The position numbers and the translations under genes are program-made. From an uncultured Lachnospiraceae bacterium (GTDB lineage: Bacteria; Bacillota; Clostridia; Lachnospirales; Lachnospiraceae): a stretch of DNA of 64,000 nucleotides. Of the stretch, positions 3,955 to 49,788 are shown in pieces. The first letter of the stretch is position 1, and every line of letters starts with the position of its first letter. A model generated the notes under the pieces. It was not told the DNA's origin, made no database searches, and was given only the letters and a program-made list of their open reading frames with translations. The stretch covers positions 18,522-82,521 of the forward strand of contig CAMWHJ010000003.1 in assembly GCA_947174015.1 (NCBI GenBank), in the 5' to 3' direction.

Positions 3955-4010
3955 TATTCCCCCTGTATAGTGGCTCATCTGTCACCGCACAGGGGGAATA
4001 TTTTTCTTTT
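3955..4010 (+). terminator. Strong rho-independent terminator
   Basis: Stem TATTCCCCCTGT / ACAGGGGGAATA followed by TTTTTCTTTTT. It ends the plus-strand AP2/HNH-like transcript. Confidence 0.85.
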
Positions 4011-4012
4011 TC

Positions 4013-4116
4013 ATAACTATTCAGTACCCTCATAGTTACAAGCAAAGAACCATTGCCTATGGCAATGGTTCTTTGCTTGTTATATCCATTTTTCTTACGG
4101 TCTTTTCAATAATTAC
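4013..4116. mobile_element. MITE-like palindromic repeat, copy 1
   Basis: Left end ATAACTATTCAGTA; inside is a perfect 16-bp hairpin GCAAAGAACCATTGCC / GGCAATGGTTCTTTGC with a TAT loop (4042-4076). The right end is decayed (TTTCAATAATTAC). Copies 2 and 3 are at 21955-22086 and 47003-47127. The TTAC of the right end provides the TAA stop of the minus-strand SGNH gene. It lacks the second hairpin seen in the other copies. Confidence 0.75.
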
Positions 4117-5066
4117 CGTTCTTCCATAACCGGTTTTAAATCCTCAATTAACTGCTCTGTACGGATTTCGGCACCTTCCGTAGTTAAATGCAAAAAAGAG
4201 TTATAAAAATACTTATAATCAAAATAGTAATCTCGATAGTCGGAAATCATAGGACATTCCAATCTCTCTTTCAGTTCCTCCTGCACCTTCACAAAGTCTT
4301 CCTCTTTGGGGGTAAATTCTCCCTTACCGATAGGATAACCGGCTACCACCATCAGTGCACCTCGCTCTGTCAGATACTGATTCAGTTCATTTAAACGTTG
4401 GATACAAAGGTCATTAATTTCCGGCACCGACTGTTCCTGAAATACAAATGTTCCCTTCTCTCTGGGATATACCACATCTCCGTATTTGTTAAATGCATCT
4501 CTGCTGTAACAGGCATCCGTTTCTGCATTGTAATTTTTTGCCGTCTCCTGACTGAGCAATCCCAGCCCCCAGATGACACCTGCCTTTTTCATATAACTTG
4601 GCAATGCCATAGCCATGGAAGTTACATCTTCTTTTCCGATAAGTTTCCACAGATATGTGTGATTCTCCAGAGTAATCCATGCCAGCTCCGTATCGTCAAT
4701 CTTACCATCATCTGCAAAGGTGTGGTGGCAGATAACATAAATATCTCCCTCTGTCACATTCATTTTCGCCATCCTCTCATGAAAGGCATTGTCCAAGCCG
4801 CCATGAAGCCCCATATTCACCACGGGCATTCCATAAGCTTCCTCCAGTAAATCGGACTGAAATCCAAAGGATACATTGGAATTTCCAATCAACACTATTT
4901 TCGGTTCCTGAAGATTCATCAACCGTTCCGTCTTATCCAACAAAGATGCATTGTAGCCTTCCTCATATTGGGGTGCTATGAATTTGAAAAATAAAAATGC
5001 GGCTGAAAACAGCAGTACTGCCATAATACCAAAAAAAAGTAGCACATTTCCAATAAATTTTTTCAT
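4113..5066 (-). CDS. SGNH/DltD-like membrane-anchored protein
   Basis: A 317-residue protein with one N-terminal membrane helix (VLLFFGIMAVLLFSAAFLFF) and an extracytoplasmic SGNH-like domain; IVLIGNSNVSFGF corresponds to the first (nucleophile) block of that fold. Directly downstream of the MBOAT gene, 15 bases away, with AAAGG ahead of the ATG. Such partners (AlgX/AlgJ, DltD, PatB types) take the acyl group moved by the MBOAT protein and place it on a surface polymer. I infer O-acylation of an exopolysaccharide or wall polymer; the substrate is unknown. The stop codon lies inside the terminal repeat of a MITE-like element, so the last residues may not be ancestral. Confidence 0.7.
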   Translation of the reverse strand: MKKFIGNVLLFFGIMAVLLFSAAFLFFKFIAPQYEEGYNASLLDKTERLMNLQEPKIVLIGNSNVSFGFQSDLLEEAYGMPVVNMGLHGGLDNAFHERMAKMNVTEGDIYVICHHTFADDGKIDDTELAWITLENHTYLWKLIGKEDVTSMAMALPSYMKKAGVIWGLGLLSQETAKNYNAETDACYSRDAFNKYGDVVYPREKGTFVFQEQSVPEINDLCIQRLNELNQYLTERGALMVVAGYPIGKGEFTPKEEDFVKVQEELKERLECPMISDYRDYYFDYKYFYNSFLHLTTEGAEIRTEQLIEDLKPVMEER

Positions 5067-20896: not shown

Positions 20897-21877
20897 TTAC
20901 AGCATTCCTTTGGTGGAAGGGATATCTTTAATTCTGGCATCATAGGAAATCGCCTCATCCAATGCCTTGGCAAATGCCTTATAAGCAGCTTCGATAATGT
21001 GATGATTGTTGCTTCCATGAATCAGCTTCATGTGAATATTCATTCCTGCCGCATAGGAAATAGCATAGAAAAATTCCCGTACCATTTCTGTATCAAAATA
21101 GCCCACACGTTCTGCGGTAAAGTCCACATCAAACACGAGATATGGTCTGCCGGAAAGATCAATAGCACATAATAACAGCGTCTCATCCATTGGCAGATAT
21201 CTCTGCCCGAAACGCTTTATTCCTTTCTTATACCCCAATGCCTTTCGAATGGCAGTTCCCAAAGCGATTCCGGTATCCTCAATGGTATGATGGCAGTCCA
21301 CAATCAAATCACCTTTCACTCTGCAGGTCAAATCAAATAAACCATGCTTTGCAAAACCCTCCAGCATATGATCAAAAAAACCAATACCGGTTTCAATCTC
21401 TGCCTTTCCGCTGCCATCCAAATTCAATTCCAGGAAAATCTCTGTCTCATTGGTTTTCCGCACCACTCTGGTAGCTCTGTCTGTGTTTCTATCGTTTTGT
21501 CTGTTTCTGTAATCATTGTTGTATTCCCGGTTCTCCCGATTATAACCTCTGTTATTGTAATTATTACCATAATTATTGTTGTAATTGTTCTCTCGACTAT
21601 TGTAATTATTATAATTTCGGTTATAACTATAATTTCGGTTGTTATCCCGATTCATCTCCCTGTTTCCATATTCCCTTCCTATGTTTTGATTCTTCTCCTG
21701 ATTTGCCTCCTGAACTTCCATTACACTTTTTTCCAACATCTTTCTCCAATCCTGCTTATTATCTTCCATATCACTATTCATTTCTTTGCTGCTTTCCGTA
21801 TTCATCTCTTTTTCAATTTCCTTATTCTTTTCATCATTCATATCGTAGTTTAACTCCCTGCTGTTCTCTTCATTCAT
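20897..21877 (-). CDS. hisB: Imidazoleglycerol-phosphate dehydratase with Asn/Arg-rich N-terminal tail
   Basis: The core (about residues 135-326) is a complete HisB, which dehydrates imidazole glycerol phosphate with Mn2+: FFDHMLEGFAKHG, HHTIEDTGIALG, RYLPMDETL, HHIIEAAYKAFAKAL. Ahead of it lies a 134-residue tail: first acidic and Glu/Lys/Met-rich (1-66), then Asn/Arg/Tyr-rich (67-134; for example NYNNYNSRENNYNNNYGNN). Usual HisB is about 195 residues. The tail is in frame with no stop, and GGAGAAG sits 8 bases before the ATG at 21877, so it is probably translated. It looks like a disordered, prion-like segment. A hydrophobic plus-strand ORF opposite it is a shadow. Confidence 0.92.
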   Translation of the reverse strand: MNEENSRELNYDMNDEKNKEIEKEMNTESSKEMNSDMEDNKQDWRKMLEKSVMEVQEANQEKNQNIGREYGNREMNRDNNRNYSYNRNYNNYNSRENNYNNNYGNNYNNRGYNRENREYNNDYRNRQNDRNTDRATRVVRKTNETEIFLELNLDGSGKAEIETGIGFFDHMLEGFAKHGLFDLTCRVKGDLIVDCHHTIEDTGIALGTAIRKALGYKKGIKRFGQRYLPMDETLLLCAIDLSGRPYLVFDVDFTAERVGYFDTEMVREFFYAISYAAGMNIHMKLIHGSNNHHIIEAAYKAFAKALDEAISYDARIKDIPSTKGML

Positions 21878-21954
21878 TTTTTCTTCTCCATATCTTTCTT
21901 ATTAATTATGAAACAAATCGTAACTGTTTGTACTTTCACAGTTATTCTTATTTT

Positions 21955-22086
21955 GTAACTATTCAGTACCTCATAGTTACAAGCAAAGAATCATGTAAAA
22001 TTGCCTATGGCAATGGTTCTCTGCCTGCTATATCCATTTTTTCTTACGGTCTGTGCAGTAAATGCACAGACCTACTGAACAGTTAC
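21955..22086. mobile_element. MITE-like palindromic repeat, copy 2 (most complete)
   Basis: 132 bp with terminal inverted repeats GTAACTATTCAGTA and TACTGAACAGTTAC (13 of 14 match). Two internal inverted repeats: ATTGCC-TAT-GGCAAT with flanks decayed on the left, and GGTCTGTGCA...TGCACAGACC. It ends 1 bp before the hisD stop codon and lies between hisD and hisB, inside the his operon. A further GTAACTGTTTGTA at 21920 resembles a fragment of the terminal repeat. Confidence 0.78.
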
Positions 22087-22087
22087 C

Positions 22088-23380
22088 TTATTTTTCAAAT
22101 CGTATGCGAATTGAATTGGCATGTGCCGTCAACTGCTCGGCTTGTGCAAATTTAATGATATCTTCATGTACTTCTTCCAACGCCTCTCTGGAATAGGAAA
22201 TAATGCTGGATTTCTTGATAAAATCATCCACACTGAGGGGCGAGAAAAACTTGGCGGTTCCATTGGTGGGCAGTACATGGTTGGGTCCTGCAAAATAGTC
22301 TCCCAAGGGCTCTGAACTGTATTCTCCAATAAAAATAGCACCTGCATTGCGAATTTTTGTCATCACATCATAGGGATTCTTTGTCTGAATTTCCAAGTGT
22401 TCAGAGGCAATTTCATTGGCGGCTGCAATGGCATCTTCCATAGTATCTGCCACTAAAATATAACCATAATTATCCAAAGATTTCTGGATAATCTCCCTTC
22501 TGGAAAGCTCAGCGGTAAACTTCTCTGTTTCTTTAGAAACCTGCTCTGCCAGTTCTCTGCTGGTGGTAATCAGAATCGCTGATGCCATCTCGTCATGTTC
22601 TGCCTGAGACAGTAAGTCTGCCGCCACATATCTTGGATTGGCACTTTCATCTGCAATCACAAGAATTTCACTGGGACCTGCAATGGAATCAATACTCACA
22701 TGTCCATATACTGCCTTTTTTGCCAATGCCACATAAATATTTCCCGGTCCGACAATTTTATCCACCTTGGGCACGCTCTCGGTTCCATAAGCCAGCGCTG
22801 CAATGGCCTGAGCTCCTCCCACCTTATATACCTCTGTGGCTCCCGCCTCTGTGGCTGCCACCAAAGTGGTGGCACAGACTTTACCGTCTTTTCCGGGAGG
22901 AGTGGTCATGATAATTCTGTCAACGCCTGCCACCTTTGCCGGAACAATGTTCATCAATACAGAAGAAGGATACACTGCCTTTCCTCCAGGCACATACACG
23001 CCTGCCTTTTCCAAGGCAGTCACCTTCTGTCCTAAAATCGTTCCCTTGGGTGAAGAGTGAAACCAACTCTGCTGACGCTGCATTTCATGATATTCTTCAA
23101 TATTCTTTAAGGCTTTTCGAATAATAGCCAGCAGCTCATCACTAACCTGTTCATAAGCTTCCTGAATCTCCTCCTCAGTGACACGAATGGTGGCGGCATC
23201 CACCTTCACACCATCAAATTTTTCTGTGTATTCAAAAATAGCCTTATCACCATTTTCTTTTACATTCGCCACAATTTCATTGACCCTCTGTTCAAATTCT
23301 CCGTAGCTGTTTGGACTTCTCTTTAATAAATTCTCCAAAATGTTTTTCTTTGTTTCTTCTTCCAGCCTGATAATTTTCAT
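22088..23380 (-). CDS. hisD: Histidinol dehydrogenase
   Basis: Oxidises histidinol to histidine in two NAD+-dependent steps. 430 residues, full length. Zinc and catalytic residues are visible in [36 protein letters not shown] and [20 protein letters not shown] precedes the ATG, which follows hisG by 9 bp. A MITE-like repeat abuts the stop codon. Confidence 0.96.
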
Positions 23381-46989: not shown

Positions 46990-47002
46990 CATAGAAAAAT
47001 TT

Positions 47003-47127
47003 GCAACTGTTCCGTAGGTCTGTGCATTTACTGCACAGACCTACGGAACAAGCAGCTCTAACAGGCAAAGAACCATTGCCATATGCATGGTTCTTTGCTG
47101 ATAACTATGAAGGTACTGAATAGTTAC
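47003..47127. mobile_element. MITE-like palindromic repeat, copy 3 (inverted)
   Basis: 125 bp, opposite orientation to copies 1 and 2. Ends GCAACTGTTCCGTA and TACTGAATAGTTAC; internal GGTCTGTGCA/TGCACAGACC and the AAAGAACCAT hairpin. It fills the gap between convergent genes and ends 6 bp before the stop of the ABC permease gene. Confidence 0.75.
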
Positions 47128-47133
47128 AAAAAT

Positions 47134-49788
47134 TTATCCATTTTCCCGCAGCCGTTCCACAATGGACTTTTTTGATACAAAGTGGTACACTGCCAATGGC
47201 AATACCATACCCAAAAGAAGGAATGCCGGAGCAACCAATAGGATGGGCAGTATGGTAAATTTATAACGAAAGAACCAGAACATATTTTCCATCAAATGTC
47301 CTGCCAATGGTTCCATCACCAGAGACAAAATCAAGGAAAACAGAATGGCTGCCACACTATAGAATACCCCTTCATACACAAGCATGGTCTTTAGCTGCTT
47401 TCCTGTCATGCCCACTGACTGAAGCATGGCAAATTCTCGTCTGCGGCTGAGAATCCCTGTGAGAATTCCATTAAAGAAATTCAATATTCCAATCACTCCC
47501 ACCACAAAACTCAGCACGCCCCCCAGTAACAGAAACATATCACGAAACCCCTCAAAATCCTCACGCACCAGTGCTTTACTCTCATACATGATCTCAGAAG
47601 ACTCTCCCTTGGTATACTCTGCCAAAAACGCTTCTGCCTGCTTTTCTGCCTCCTCATTAGGTGTATCAAACACATATACAAGTGGATATATGTCCTCCCC
47701 GCTATCTTTTCGCAAAGCTTCACCTGTCAATACGGCTTCCAATCCTCCTATGCTGAAACGATATCCCATATCATACGGAACATTCACCACTGCACAAACC
47801 GTATATTCCACATCATGGAACTTAACAATACGATACTCCACAAATTCAGCCGGTGTTTCCTCGGTGCATAATTCTCCTGTACGACTGTCATAAAAGTGTC
47901 CTTCCTCCACATACGTCACGGTAAATTTGGAACCAACCTCAGGGGAACTGCCATAGCGATTTCCGTAGTCATCCACAGGAGCAGCAATGGCAATGGCATG
48001 ATTGTCTGGATCGAACAGCGGAGTAATGTCCCCCTCAAAGACAGTTAATTTTTCCAACAAAGCTTCATCCAGTCCTTCCAACATAATATCCGCTTCATAC
48101 ATAGAATCACGTTGTGGTATACTAGACATTCTCATTTGAATCTCTTCCTCTGAGTAAAAATCAGAATAGAGTTTCTTATATTGCTCTTCTGGCATCCAAC
48201 ATTGAGCATCGATATTTTCAAAACCGGAATAAGCGGCACCAGCTATGGTCTGCTGAGTGTTTTCCTGAATCTCTTTTATCACATCCTCCGACAGTGCTGC
48301 ATTTGTGCTGCCCCCGTTATAGCGAAAATACTCTGTGGTTCCCAGCACAAAATCTGAACTCAATTGTTTGCTCAAATATTTTTCCATATCAAAGCCGCCG
48401 GTAAAAGAATATACACAGTTCAGCAAAATGACTGCCAAAGAAAGAGAGACCACCACAAGAACCAACTTTGTCCTGCTGCGATCTAAATTTGCAATTGCCA
48501 TCTGAAACACCGTGGCTCCCTTTGTGGTATGCCTTTTCTTTCTCTTGATAGTTGTCTCTGTGTAACGGACTGCCTCCACAGGTGATATTTTTGCTGCCAT
48601 TCTTCCCGGACGGCTACAGGAAAACAGCACTGTTATCAGTGAGAATAAAGTAGCACCTAAAAAGATAAGCGGCGAAACACTAAGTTTCACAACAGAGCCA
48701 AGTGTGGTAGACGACATTACTGCTGGAAGCAGCAGTGCACCCACACCATATCCGCCCAAAAGCCCAAAGGGGATACCAAGTATCGAAAGGCAGCATGCCT
48801 GCCAACGAATTATTTTCTCTATCTGCTTTGGTGTGGTGCCTATGGTTTTTAACAGCCCATAAAACCGGACATCATTGCTGACAGAAATTCGAAAAATGTT
48901 GTATATAATCAAATAACCAGTAAAAACCACCAGCAGAAGAAATGCCACAATGGATGCCACAAGACCCAGATCCAGATTAGCCCCTGCTTCCGATGCCGTA
49001 TATCCCCAGTTTACACCGATACGGACACAGTTCTCTGCATCTCTTTCCTCCCACTGATAGCCCAAATCTGTGTCTATATTCTCCATCACACCTTGAATAT
49101 TAATACTGGAAGCCAACATCACATTCATATCCTTGCGAAAAGAGCTGCCGCCTGCCGCAATATGCTCTGCTTCCACCTGCTGTGCATAGAATTCTGAGAT
49201 ATTAATATAATGCACCGGAGACAGAGTATCATAGTTCCAAAAACCCACCAGCGTAAATACATCTGTGCGTTCCTCCGTGGTTCCTGTTCCCTGCTTATCT
49301 TCCTGTTGATAAGTCAAAATGATCTGCTCTCCTAATTTTGCCGGAACTCCAAGTTTTTCCAGTGCTTTGGTGTCCATGGCAATTTCATTTCTTTCTTCCG
49401 GCATCCGTCCTGTGGTGGGCACGGCATAAGACCATTTGGTACAATTTGCATCCATCCAGCTAATCTCTGCGGGAATTTTTGCAAAGGGTTCCTCTGTACA
49501 AAAGCCGATTGTCTGACGAAGTCCATATTCCTTTATTTTAGAATGGGAAGAAAGTGCTGTTATCTTTTCCTCATCTACATCCTTAAAGGTACCATGGCAA
49601 TATCCCCCTGTCTGCCGGAAACTGTATTCCTCATAGCTGGAATTTAAAGACATTGCAATGGTAAACAGTGCGGTAAATAAAAGTGTAGTCAATGCAATGG
49701 CAAACACTGCAATCAAATTGCGCATCTGTGATGCTTTTAACTGCCTTAAGCTCAAATGGCGGATACAGCTTTGATTCTTTACTTTCAT
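47134..49788 (-). CDS. FtsX-domain ABC transporter permease
   Basis: 884 residues, large two-FtsX-domain form. First helix near residue 30 (VFAIALTTLLFTALFTIAMS), a big extracytoplasmic loop, a three-helix FtsX core (LVASIVAFLLLVVFTGYLII onward), a second extracytoplasmic region, and a second core at the C-terminus (GILNFFNGILTGILSRRREF, MLQSVGMTGKQLKTM). With the ATPase it forms a MacB/YtrF-like export or mechanotransmission system. No sensor kinase/regulator pair adjoins, unlike BceAB loci. Confidence 0.88.
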   Translation of the reverse strand: MKVKNQSCIRHLSLRQLKASQMRNLIAVFAIALTTLLFTALFTIAMSLNSSYEEYSFRQTGGYCHGTFKDVDEEKITALSSHSKIKEYGLRQTIGFCTEEPFAKIPAEISWMDANCTKWSYAVPTTGRMPEERNEIAMDTKALEKLGVPAKLGEQIILTYQQEDKQGTGTTEERTDVFTLVGFWNYDTLSPVHYINISEFYAQQVEAEHIAAGGSSFRKDMNVMLASSINIQGVMENIDTDLGYQWEERDAENCVRIGVNWGYTASEAGANLDLGLVASIVAFLLLVVFTGYLIIYNIFRISVSNDVRFYGLLKTIGTTPKQIEKIIRWQACCLSILGIPFGLLGGYGVGALLLPAVMSSTTLGSVVKLSVSPLIFLGATLFSLITVLFSCSRPGRMAAKISPVEAVRYTETTIKRKKRHTTKGATVFQMAIANLDRSRTKLVLVVVSLSLAVILLNCVYSFTGGFDMEKYLSKQLSSDFVLGTTEYFRYNGGSTNAALSEDVIKEIQENTQQTIAGAAYSGFENIDAQCWMPEEQYKKLYSDFYSEEEIQMRMSSIPQRDSMYEADIMLEGLDEALLEKLTVFEGDITPLFDPDNHAIAIAAPVDDYGNRYGSSPEVGSKFTVTYVEEGHFYDSRTGELCTEETPAEFVEYRIVKFHDVEYTVCAVVNVPYDMGYRFSIGGLEAVLTGEALRKDSGEDIYPLVYVFDTPNEEAEKQAEAFLAEYTKGESSEIMYESKALVREDFEGFRDMFLLLGGVLSFVVGVIGILNFFNGILTGILSRRREFAMLQSVGMTGKQLKTMLVYEGVFYSVAAILFSLILSLVMEPLAGHLMENMFWFFRYKFTILPILLVAPAFLLLGMVLPLAVYHFVSKKSIVERLRENG

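Follow-up and report, generated by a model that had tools for sequence, protein, structure and literature searches.

An abundant, probably IS66-type miniature inverted-repeat element of the Lachnospiraceae with a well-conserved internal fold

Three short inverted repeats in a 64,000-nucleotide stretch of DNA (the window) from an uncultured Lachnospiraceae bacterium are very probably copies of a non-autonomous, IS66-type miniature inverted-repeat transposable element (MITE), which accumulate in tolerated non-coding DNA and are not terminators. The element is abundant and family-wide and is ordinary in kind, with an internal fold that is unusually well conserved. Its transposition, its target duplications and its spread through the family are established at the level of sequence. 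In the mechanism proposed here, IS66-family single-ORF transposases would mobilise the MITE in trans, the element would insert at A+T-rich sites ending in T or C and duplicate 8 bp, and selection would remove insertions from genes, leaving copies to pile up in the remaining non-coding DNA. Copies would adjoin stop codons as tolerated A+T-rich sites, and not as suppliers of terminators.

The element is new, having no matching Rfam family and no paper in the searched open-access literature, in which neither a description of it nor one of MITEs tied to IS66 or to Lachnospiraceae was found. It matters as an abundant repeat of a major family of gut bacteria that disrupts assemblies. The combination of a family-wide fold with little apparent site-level selection would also make it a clean system in which to ask whether the palindromes of MITEs serve the transposon or the host.

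Copies in the window and in the source genome

The three repeats lie exactly where an earlier note on this DNA had placed them, and all were recovered by a covariance model (CM; Table 1) trained on elements of other genera and of the genome itself, including copy 2 and two further own copies. No other full copy was found in the window with this model. The 14-bp ends that had been described are present and read GTAACTATTCAGTA / GTAACTGTTCAGTA, with one variant end in copy 3 (GCAACTGTTCCGTA). Copy 1 is decayed: its right-end hairpin is mostly lost, its right terminal inverted repeat (TIR) is degenerate and its duplication is not intact. The arrangement of the neighbours was also as reported, with copies 1 and 3 between convergent ORFs and copy 2 in the his operon, between hisD and hisB (hisD, hisB and hisIE were identified by NCBIfam). 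A stop codon is indeed close to each copy. It lies 1 bp from copy 2 (hisD) and 6 bp from copy 3 (the ORF at 47134-49788, − strand), and at copy 1, by reading, the terminal GTAA of the element itself supplies the stop of the ORF at 4113-5066 (− strand). Rfam searches returned nothing at gathering scores in the window, and relaxed searches of seven loci returned nothing on the element.

Table 1. Positions of the three element copies and their parts in the window
Feature	Position	Strand	Description
Intrinsic terminator of the upstream gene	3956..4012	+	hairpin and T tract directly before copy 1; outside the element
MITE copy 1	4013..4116	+	104 bp, decayed; CM E 1.8e-14
Copy 2, left 8-bp target duplication	21947..21954		CTTATTTT
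MITE copy 2	21955..22086	+	132 bp, complete, in the hisD/hisB gap of the his operon; CM E 2.6e-30
Copy 2, terminal inverted repeat	21955..21968	+	GTAACTATTCAGTA
Copy 2, core two-part hairpin with A-rich bulge (helices 2 and 3)	21983..22025	+	covarying across genera; limits approximate
Copy 2, right-end hairpin (helix 4)	22048..22072	+	GGTCTGTGCA-GTAAA-TGCACAGACC; covarying across genera; limits approximate
Copy 2, terminal inverted repeat	22073..22086	-	GTAACTGTTCAGTA
Copy 2, right 8-bp target duplication	22087..22094		CTTATTTT; contains the hisD stop codon (TAA, - strand)
Copy 3, left 8-bp target duplication	46995..47002		AAAAATTT
MITE copy 3	47003..47127	-	125 bp, core hairpin with a small deletion; CM E 6e-21
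Copy 3, right 8-bp target duplication	47128..47135		AAAAATTT; overlaps the stop of the 47134-49788 (-) ORF

A separate observation concerns the product of hisB. The ORF at 20897-21877 (− strand) begins with a low-complexity N-terminal extension of about 130 aa that is rich in Asn, Tyr, Arg and Glu; the corresponding extension in 72 Lachnospiraceae relatives is mostly 2-35 aa long, with a maximum of 65.

Three copies is the right count for the window but not for the genome. The source genome (G000) is a 3.2-Mb draft in 131 contigs, which belongs to the Lachnospiraceae and is closest by HisD to assemblies labelled Roseburia (81% identity). The genome-wide search with the terminal repeat that had been proposed gave 431 matches when up to one mismatch was allowed, while the reversed pattern gave 10; exact matches numbered 297, with 0 for the reversed control. 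Chance origin of the repeats is excluded by the comparison of 431 with 10. By extrapolation, the genome would hold a few hundred copies plus fragments.

The census covered 1.64 Mb (51%) of the genome, examined in stretches, and gave 152 merged element places and 71 complete copies. The 8-bp target duplication is perfect in 52 of the 71 complete copies and matches at 7 of 8 bases in 15 more, and because 67 of 71 therefore carry it, the copies are transposed MITEs. The other marks of a MITE are present as well, as the element is short, has TIRs and many dispersed copies, and has no coding capacity and no transposase gene. Duplications of the same fixed length of 8 bp also accompany the elements of G250, G130, G278 and others. 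The target is A+T-rich and ends in T or C, approximately NNNWTTTY. The element is bounded by TIRs of 14-16 bp (GTAACTRTTCAGTACC), with the 14-bp sequence GTAACTRTTCAGTA at both ends. Elements range from 42 to 236 bp, most being 133 or 211 bp long, and the 211-bp form has an extra 78-bp segment within the core hairpin. The earlier description was thus right about the repeats and their ends, and had overlooked the duplications, the further copies and the 211-bp subtype.

Contig ends of the draft fall inside an element copy in 33 of the 41 cases inspected, so the draft breaks at these copies, and other short-read assemblies of the species will do likewise. Two loci are recorded here for their arrangement. 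At G000:C24:34651-36251, two copies 1.3 kb apart have near-identical 8-bp targets (AACTGTTC and GACTGTTC). At L014:15964-16780 (G000:C1:115964-116780), an 817-bp segment has a different element end on each side, without a matching duplication, and by reading it contains two direct repeats that resemble each other and have terminator-like hairpins.

Transposases with the same ends, and distribution in the family

In all likelihood the element is moved in trans by IS66-type transposases, as we infer from its ends and its duplications. The IS66 family makes 8-bp target duplications, and the element has the signature of this family, GTAA termini together with an 8-bp duplication. IS66 ends reading GTAAGCG... 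are given in PMC12888890. In all, five other Lachnospiraceae genera have IS66-type transposase sequence bordered by the ends of the element. In G344, the element at L257:1552-5158 has the ends GTAACTATTCAGAACC / GTAACTATTCAGCACC and an 8/8 duplication (ATAATTTT), and encodes a 481-aa transposase with PF03050 (E 1.2e-43) and DUF6444; it is split by a nested second IS, which by reading we take to be ISL3-like. An exact 16-bp end (GTAACTATTCAGTACC) adjoins an IS66 transposase in G329, and the cases in G018, G030 and G120 are similar.

The IS with matching ends that had been sought was thus found in five other genera but not in the source genome, where a PF03050 search of the draft, which breaks at repeats, gave no IS66 transposase, and where no transposase lay between paired element ends in the 1.64 Mb. 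The genome's own IS66 transposase may have been lost, or may be hidden in collapsed repeats. The suggestion that an unseen transposase moved the repeats is nevertheless borne out by the 8-bp duplications, by the few hundred copies and by the same-ended IS66 transposases of other genera.

Several candidates were considered and rejected. L049 has only a sub-threshold match to PF03050, and its locus is presumably an IS256/mutator-like element. Two longer end-to-end candidates with near-matching 8-mers in the 1.64 Mb are pairs of separate MITE copies, and at four IS66 loci in relatives (L136-L139) the ends are different or unrecognisable. Among plasmid records, the IS66 C-terminus matched one sequence only, a distant one from Leptospirillum.

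Matches to the covariance model were obtained in 45 of 250 sampled genomes, with one genus per genome, and related forms of the element are present in about one in six Lachnospiraceae genera. Across the family, elements are 132-145 bp long and follow a common plan, in which the first terminal repeat and a subterminal inverted motif are followed by a two-part hairpin whose bulge is A-rich, then by another hairpin and the other terminal repeat. Within the genus of the source genome, G001 (L155, L156, L157, L160) carries a distinct sub-lineage with the right end GTAACTATTCAGTACAGGTCTCAGC, and three other genomes have no exact match to the terminal repeat. The element is also found at about 75% identity in three unannotated faecal records labelled 'Bacteriophage sp.' (MT836459, MT837311 and MT839789), the carriers of which are either phages or mislabelled host contigs. 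Plasmid records searched with the element gave no match.

The internal fold

The alignments indicate that the internal hairpins are conserved through compensatory changes across genera. In a MAFFT alignment built without structure, 18 of 38 pairs show changes on both sides, compared with 7.4 after shuffling and at most 8 when the pairing was slid. Among 41 sequences aligned to the model, an alignment which leans towards that model, both-side changes occur at 30 of 38 pairs and in 212 cells, compared with 19.9 and 50 after shuffling. All ten pairs in the lower stem of the core hairpin have changed, yet are still paired. This covariation could result from selection on the element as DNA or as RNA, or from palindrome-correcting mutation, and the simplest account would be either that the spreading element requires the fold, in its DNA or its RNA, or that such mutation produces it. 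A more specific proposal, which is tentative and on balance unlikely, is that this is a Lachnospiraceae-wide MITE lineage whose two-hairpin fold is under selection, in addition to its ends, because it is required by the IS66-type machinery or at an RNA step. If true, a DDE transposase family would have a non-autonomous element that depends on its structure.

Somewhat less likely again is a role for the host of the kind described for ERIC and NEMIS, in which folded, co-transcribed copies alter the decay or cleavage of neighbouring transcripts and are retained in place for that reason. These two repeats provide a precedent (PMC2229807), many copies are found in short co-directional gaps, and the compensatory conservation of the fold across genera would fit. 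If the fold served the host at each copy, private changes should avoid the stems, and if one strand acted as RNA, G-U and A-C departures should differ. Private changes are rarer in stems in G130 (20/84 versus 16/30, P 0.02), and within genomes there is a weak tendency of distinct changes in stems towards G-U on the strand that is mostly transcribed (34 versus 20, P 0.076). However, private mutations are equal in the source genome (12 per 54 stem columns versus 12 per 51 unpaired) and number 16/66 in stems versus 7/39 unpaired in G250, neither G-U nor A-C departures predominate across genera (10 versus 13), and the orientation bias in tandem gaps, given below, is about as target-strand asymmetry predicts. 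Stem conservation among recent copies was rejected as proof, as the scarcity of shared changes in stems in the source genome (3 versus 15, by subtraction) was not reproduced in G250 or G130.

For individual copies, signs that the fold is under selection thus appear weak or absent. Since private mutations fall mostly evenly on stems and loops, they suggest a fold that is of use to the spreading element, or that reflects palindrome upkeep, rather than one serving the host at each site. The mutation data speak mostly against an RNA role, which is possible at some sites.

Placement relative to genes and likeness to known systems

To describe placement, each complete copy was excised by script together with one duplication, and the insertion sites were compared with random sites. 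Genes were called with a home-made simple codon-usage caller (about 87% coding), and the P values are several and uncorrected. Called genes contain only 8 of the 67 insertions, where A+T-matched random sites would give 55, a shortage that is ordinary purging. The 59 intergenic insertions comprise 4 in convergent gaps (6.1 expected), 43 in tandem gaps (42.7) and 12 in divergent gaps (10.2). Under a null restricted to the same gaps and weighted by the target motif, 13 insertions lie between −4 and +5 bp of a stop codon, where 7.4 are expected (P 0.0085), and 20 lie 20-45 bp upstream of start codons, where 10.1 are expected (0 of 2000 simulations). Insertions avoid the 20 bp immediately before starts (2 against 6.8 expected). 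The excess at stop codons is modest, and that upstream of starts is larger. In G250, 6 insertions lie within 10 bp of a stop against 2.2 expected under a uniform null (P 0.009), and in G130 neither the stop-related nor the start-related excess is significant.

Placement is the remainder after coding sequence and ribosome-binding sites are avoided, plus an extra preference for the edges of stop codons. Of the earlier claim that copies are placed at gene 3' ends, only the modest stop-codon excess is seen; convergent gaps are not favoured, and the sites upstream of starts are enriched more. The target motif does not fully explain the stop-codon excess, which leaves room for a small 3'-end effect. 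The element can also create the association itself, as its terminal GTAA contains TAA, of which copy 1 is an example.

Within tandem gaps, 33 copies are in the opposite orientation and 9 in the same. Polarity selection was rejected as the main reading of this bias, as about 10 'same' copies in 42 are expected from a model of the target motif that was trained on other insertions. Same-orientation copies sit in longer gaps (P 0.03), which is a weak hint only.

Targeted insertion of the elements into intrinsic terminators or stop codons is improbable. Such targeting would account for the position of copy 1 just where the T tract of a terminator ends, for the stop-codon excess and for the T-rich target motif, but only 14 of 47 insertions lie within 10 bp of stops, and the preference weakens once the target motif is considered and is not significant in G130.

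The least probable account, and a very unlikely one, is that in the earlier note, by which the repeats are portable bidirectional terminators: the internal hairpin would halt RNA polymerase in both directions, and copies would be retained at gene 3' ends on that account. The strong hairpins within the element, in either orientation, and the excess within 5-10 bp of stops, including that in G250, fit this, but no hairpin directly before a T-run was found in window copies 1-3 (by a scan limited to loops of 3-8 and by reading of both strands) or, by eye, in the element consensus; on the + strand, a T5 run starts more than 10 nt past the hairpin. The gap types match the random null, with convergent gaps not favoured, the excess upstream of starts exceeds that at stops, and 13 of the 33 'opposite' copies are in co-directional gaps of less than 100 bp, which are likely operons. 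Copy 2 itself is within the his operon; among 72 relatives with hisD then hisB, the pair is adjacent in nearly every case, with gaps mostly below 130 bp (gap lengths only), and a strong terminator in copy 2 would cut off hisB, barring an internal promoter. The gene upstream of copy 1 has already ended before the element, because it has its own strong terminator there (−29 kcal/mol). The element does not appear to be a special gene-end signal, and a terminator function is not supported.

Taken as a non-autonomous IS66-type MITE, the element can be placed among known systems. With the IS66 family (single-ORF, PF03050 and DUF6444) it shares GTAA-starting repeats and the 8-bp duplication, and its end is identical over 16 bp to that of a Lachnospiraceae IS66; unlike IS66, it has no coding sequence and only about one-fourteenth of the length, and no autonomous copy was found in the source genome. 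It resembles ERIC, NEMIS (Correia) and RUP, which are about 105-155 bp long and intergenic, with terminal repeats, a long paired interior and subtypes with an extra internal segment (PMC2229807). These have TA termini (PMC2229807), whereas the present element has GTAA ends, an 8-bp duplication and different hosts. MITEPsy1 of Pseudomonas syringae, a 100-bp MITE with IS-matching ends that was shown to transpose (PMC3189936), is similar in having such ends, but differs in its probable IS5-type partner, its 4-bp duplication and its few copies. REPs are palindromes of 20-40 bp with a tagged end (PMC3733652), and REP/BIME systems with TnpA-REP are likewise high-copy extragenic palindromes; the element described here differs from them in its length of 133 bp, its terminal repeats and its 8-bp duplications.
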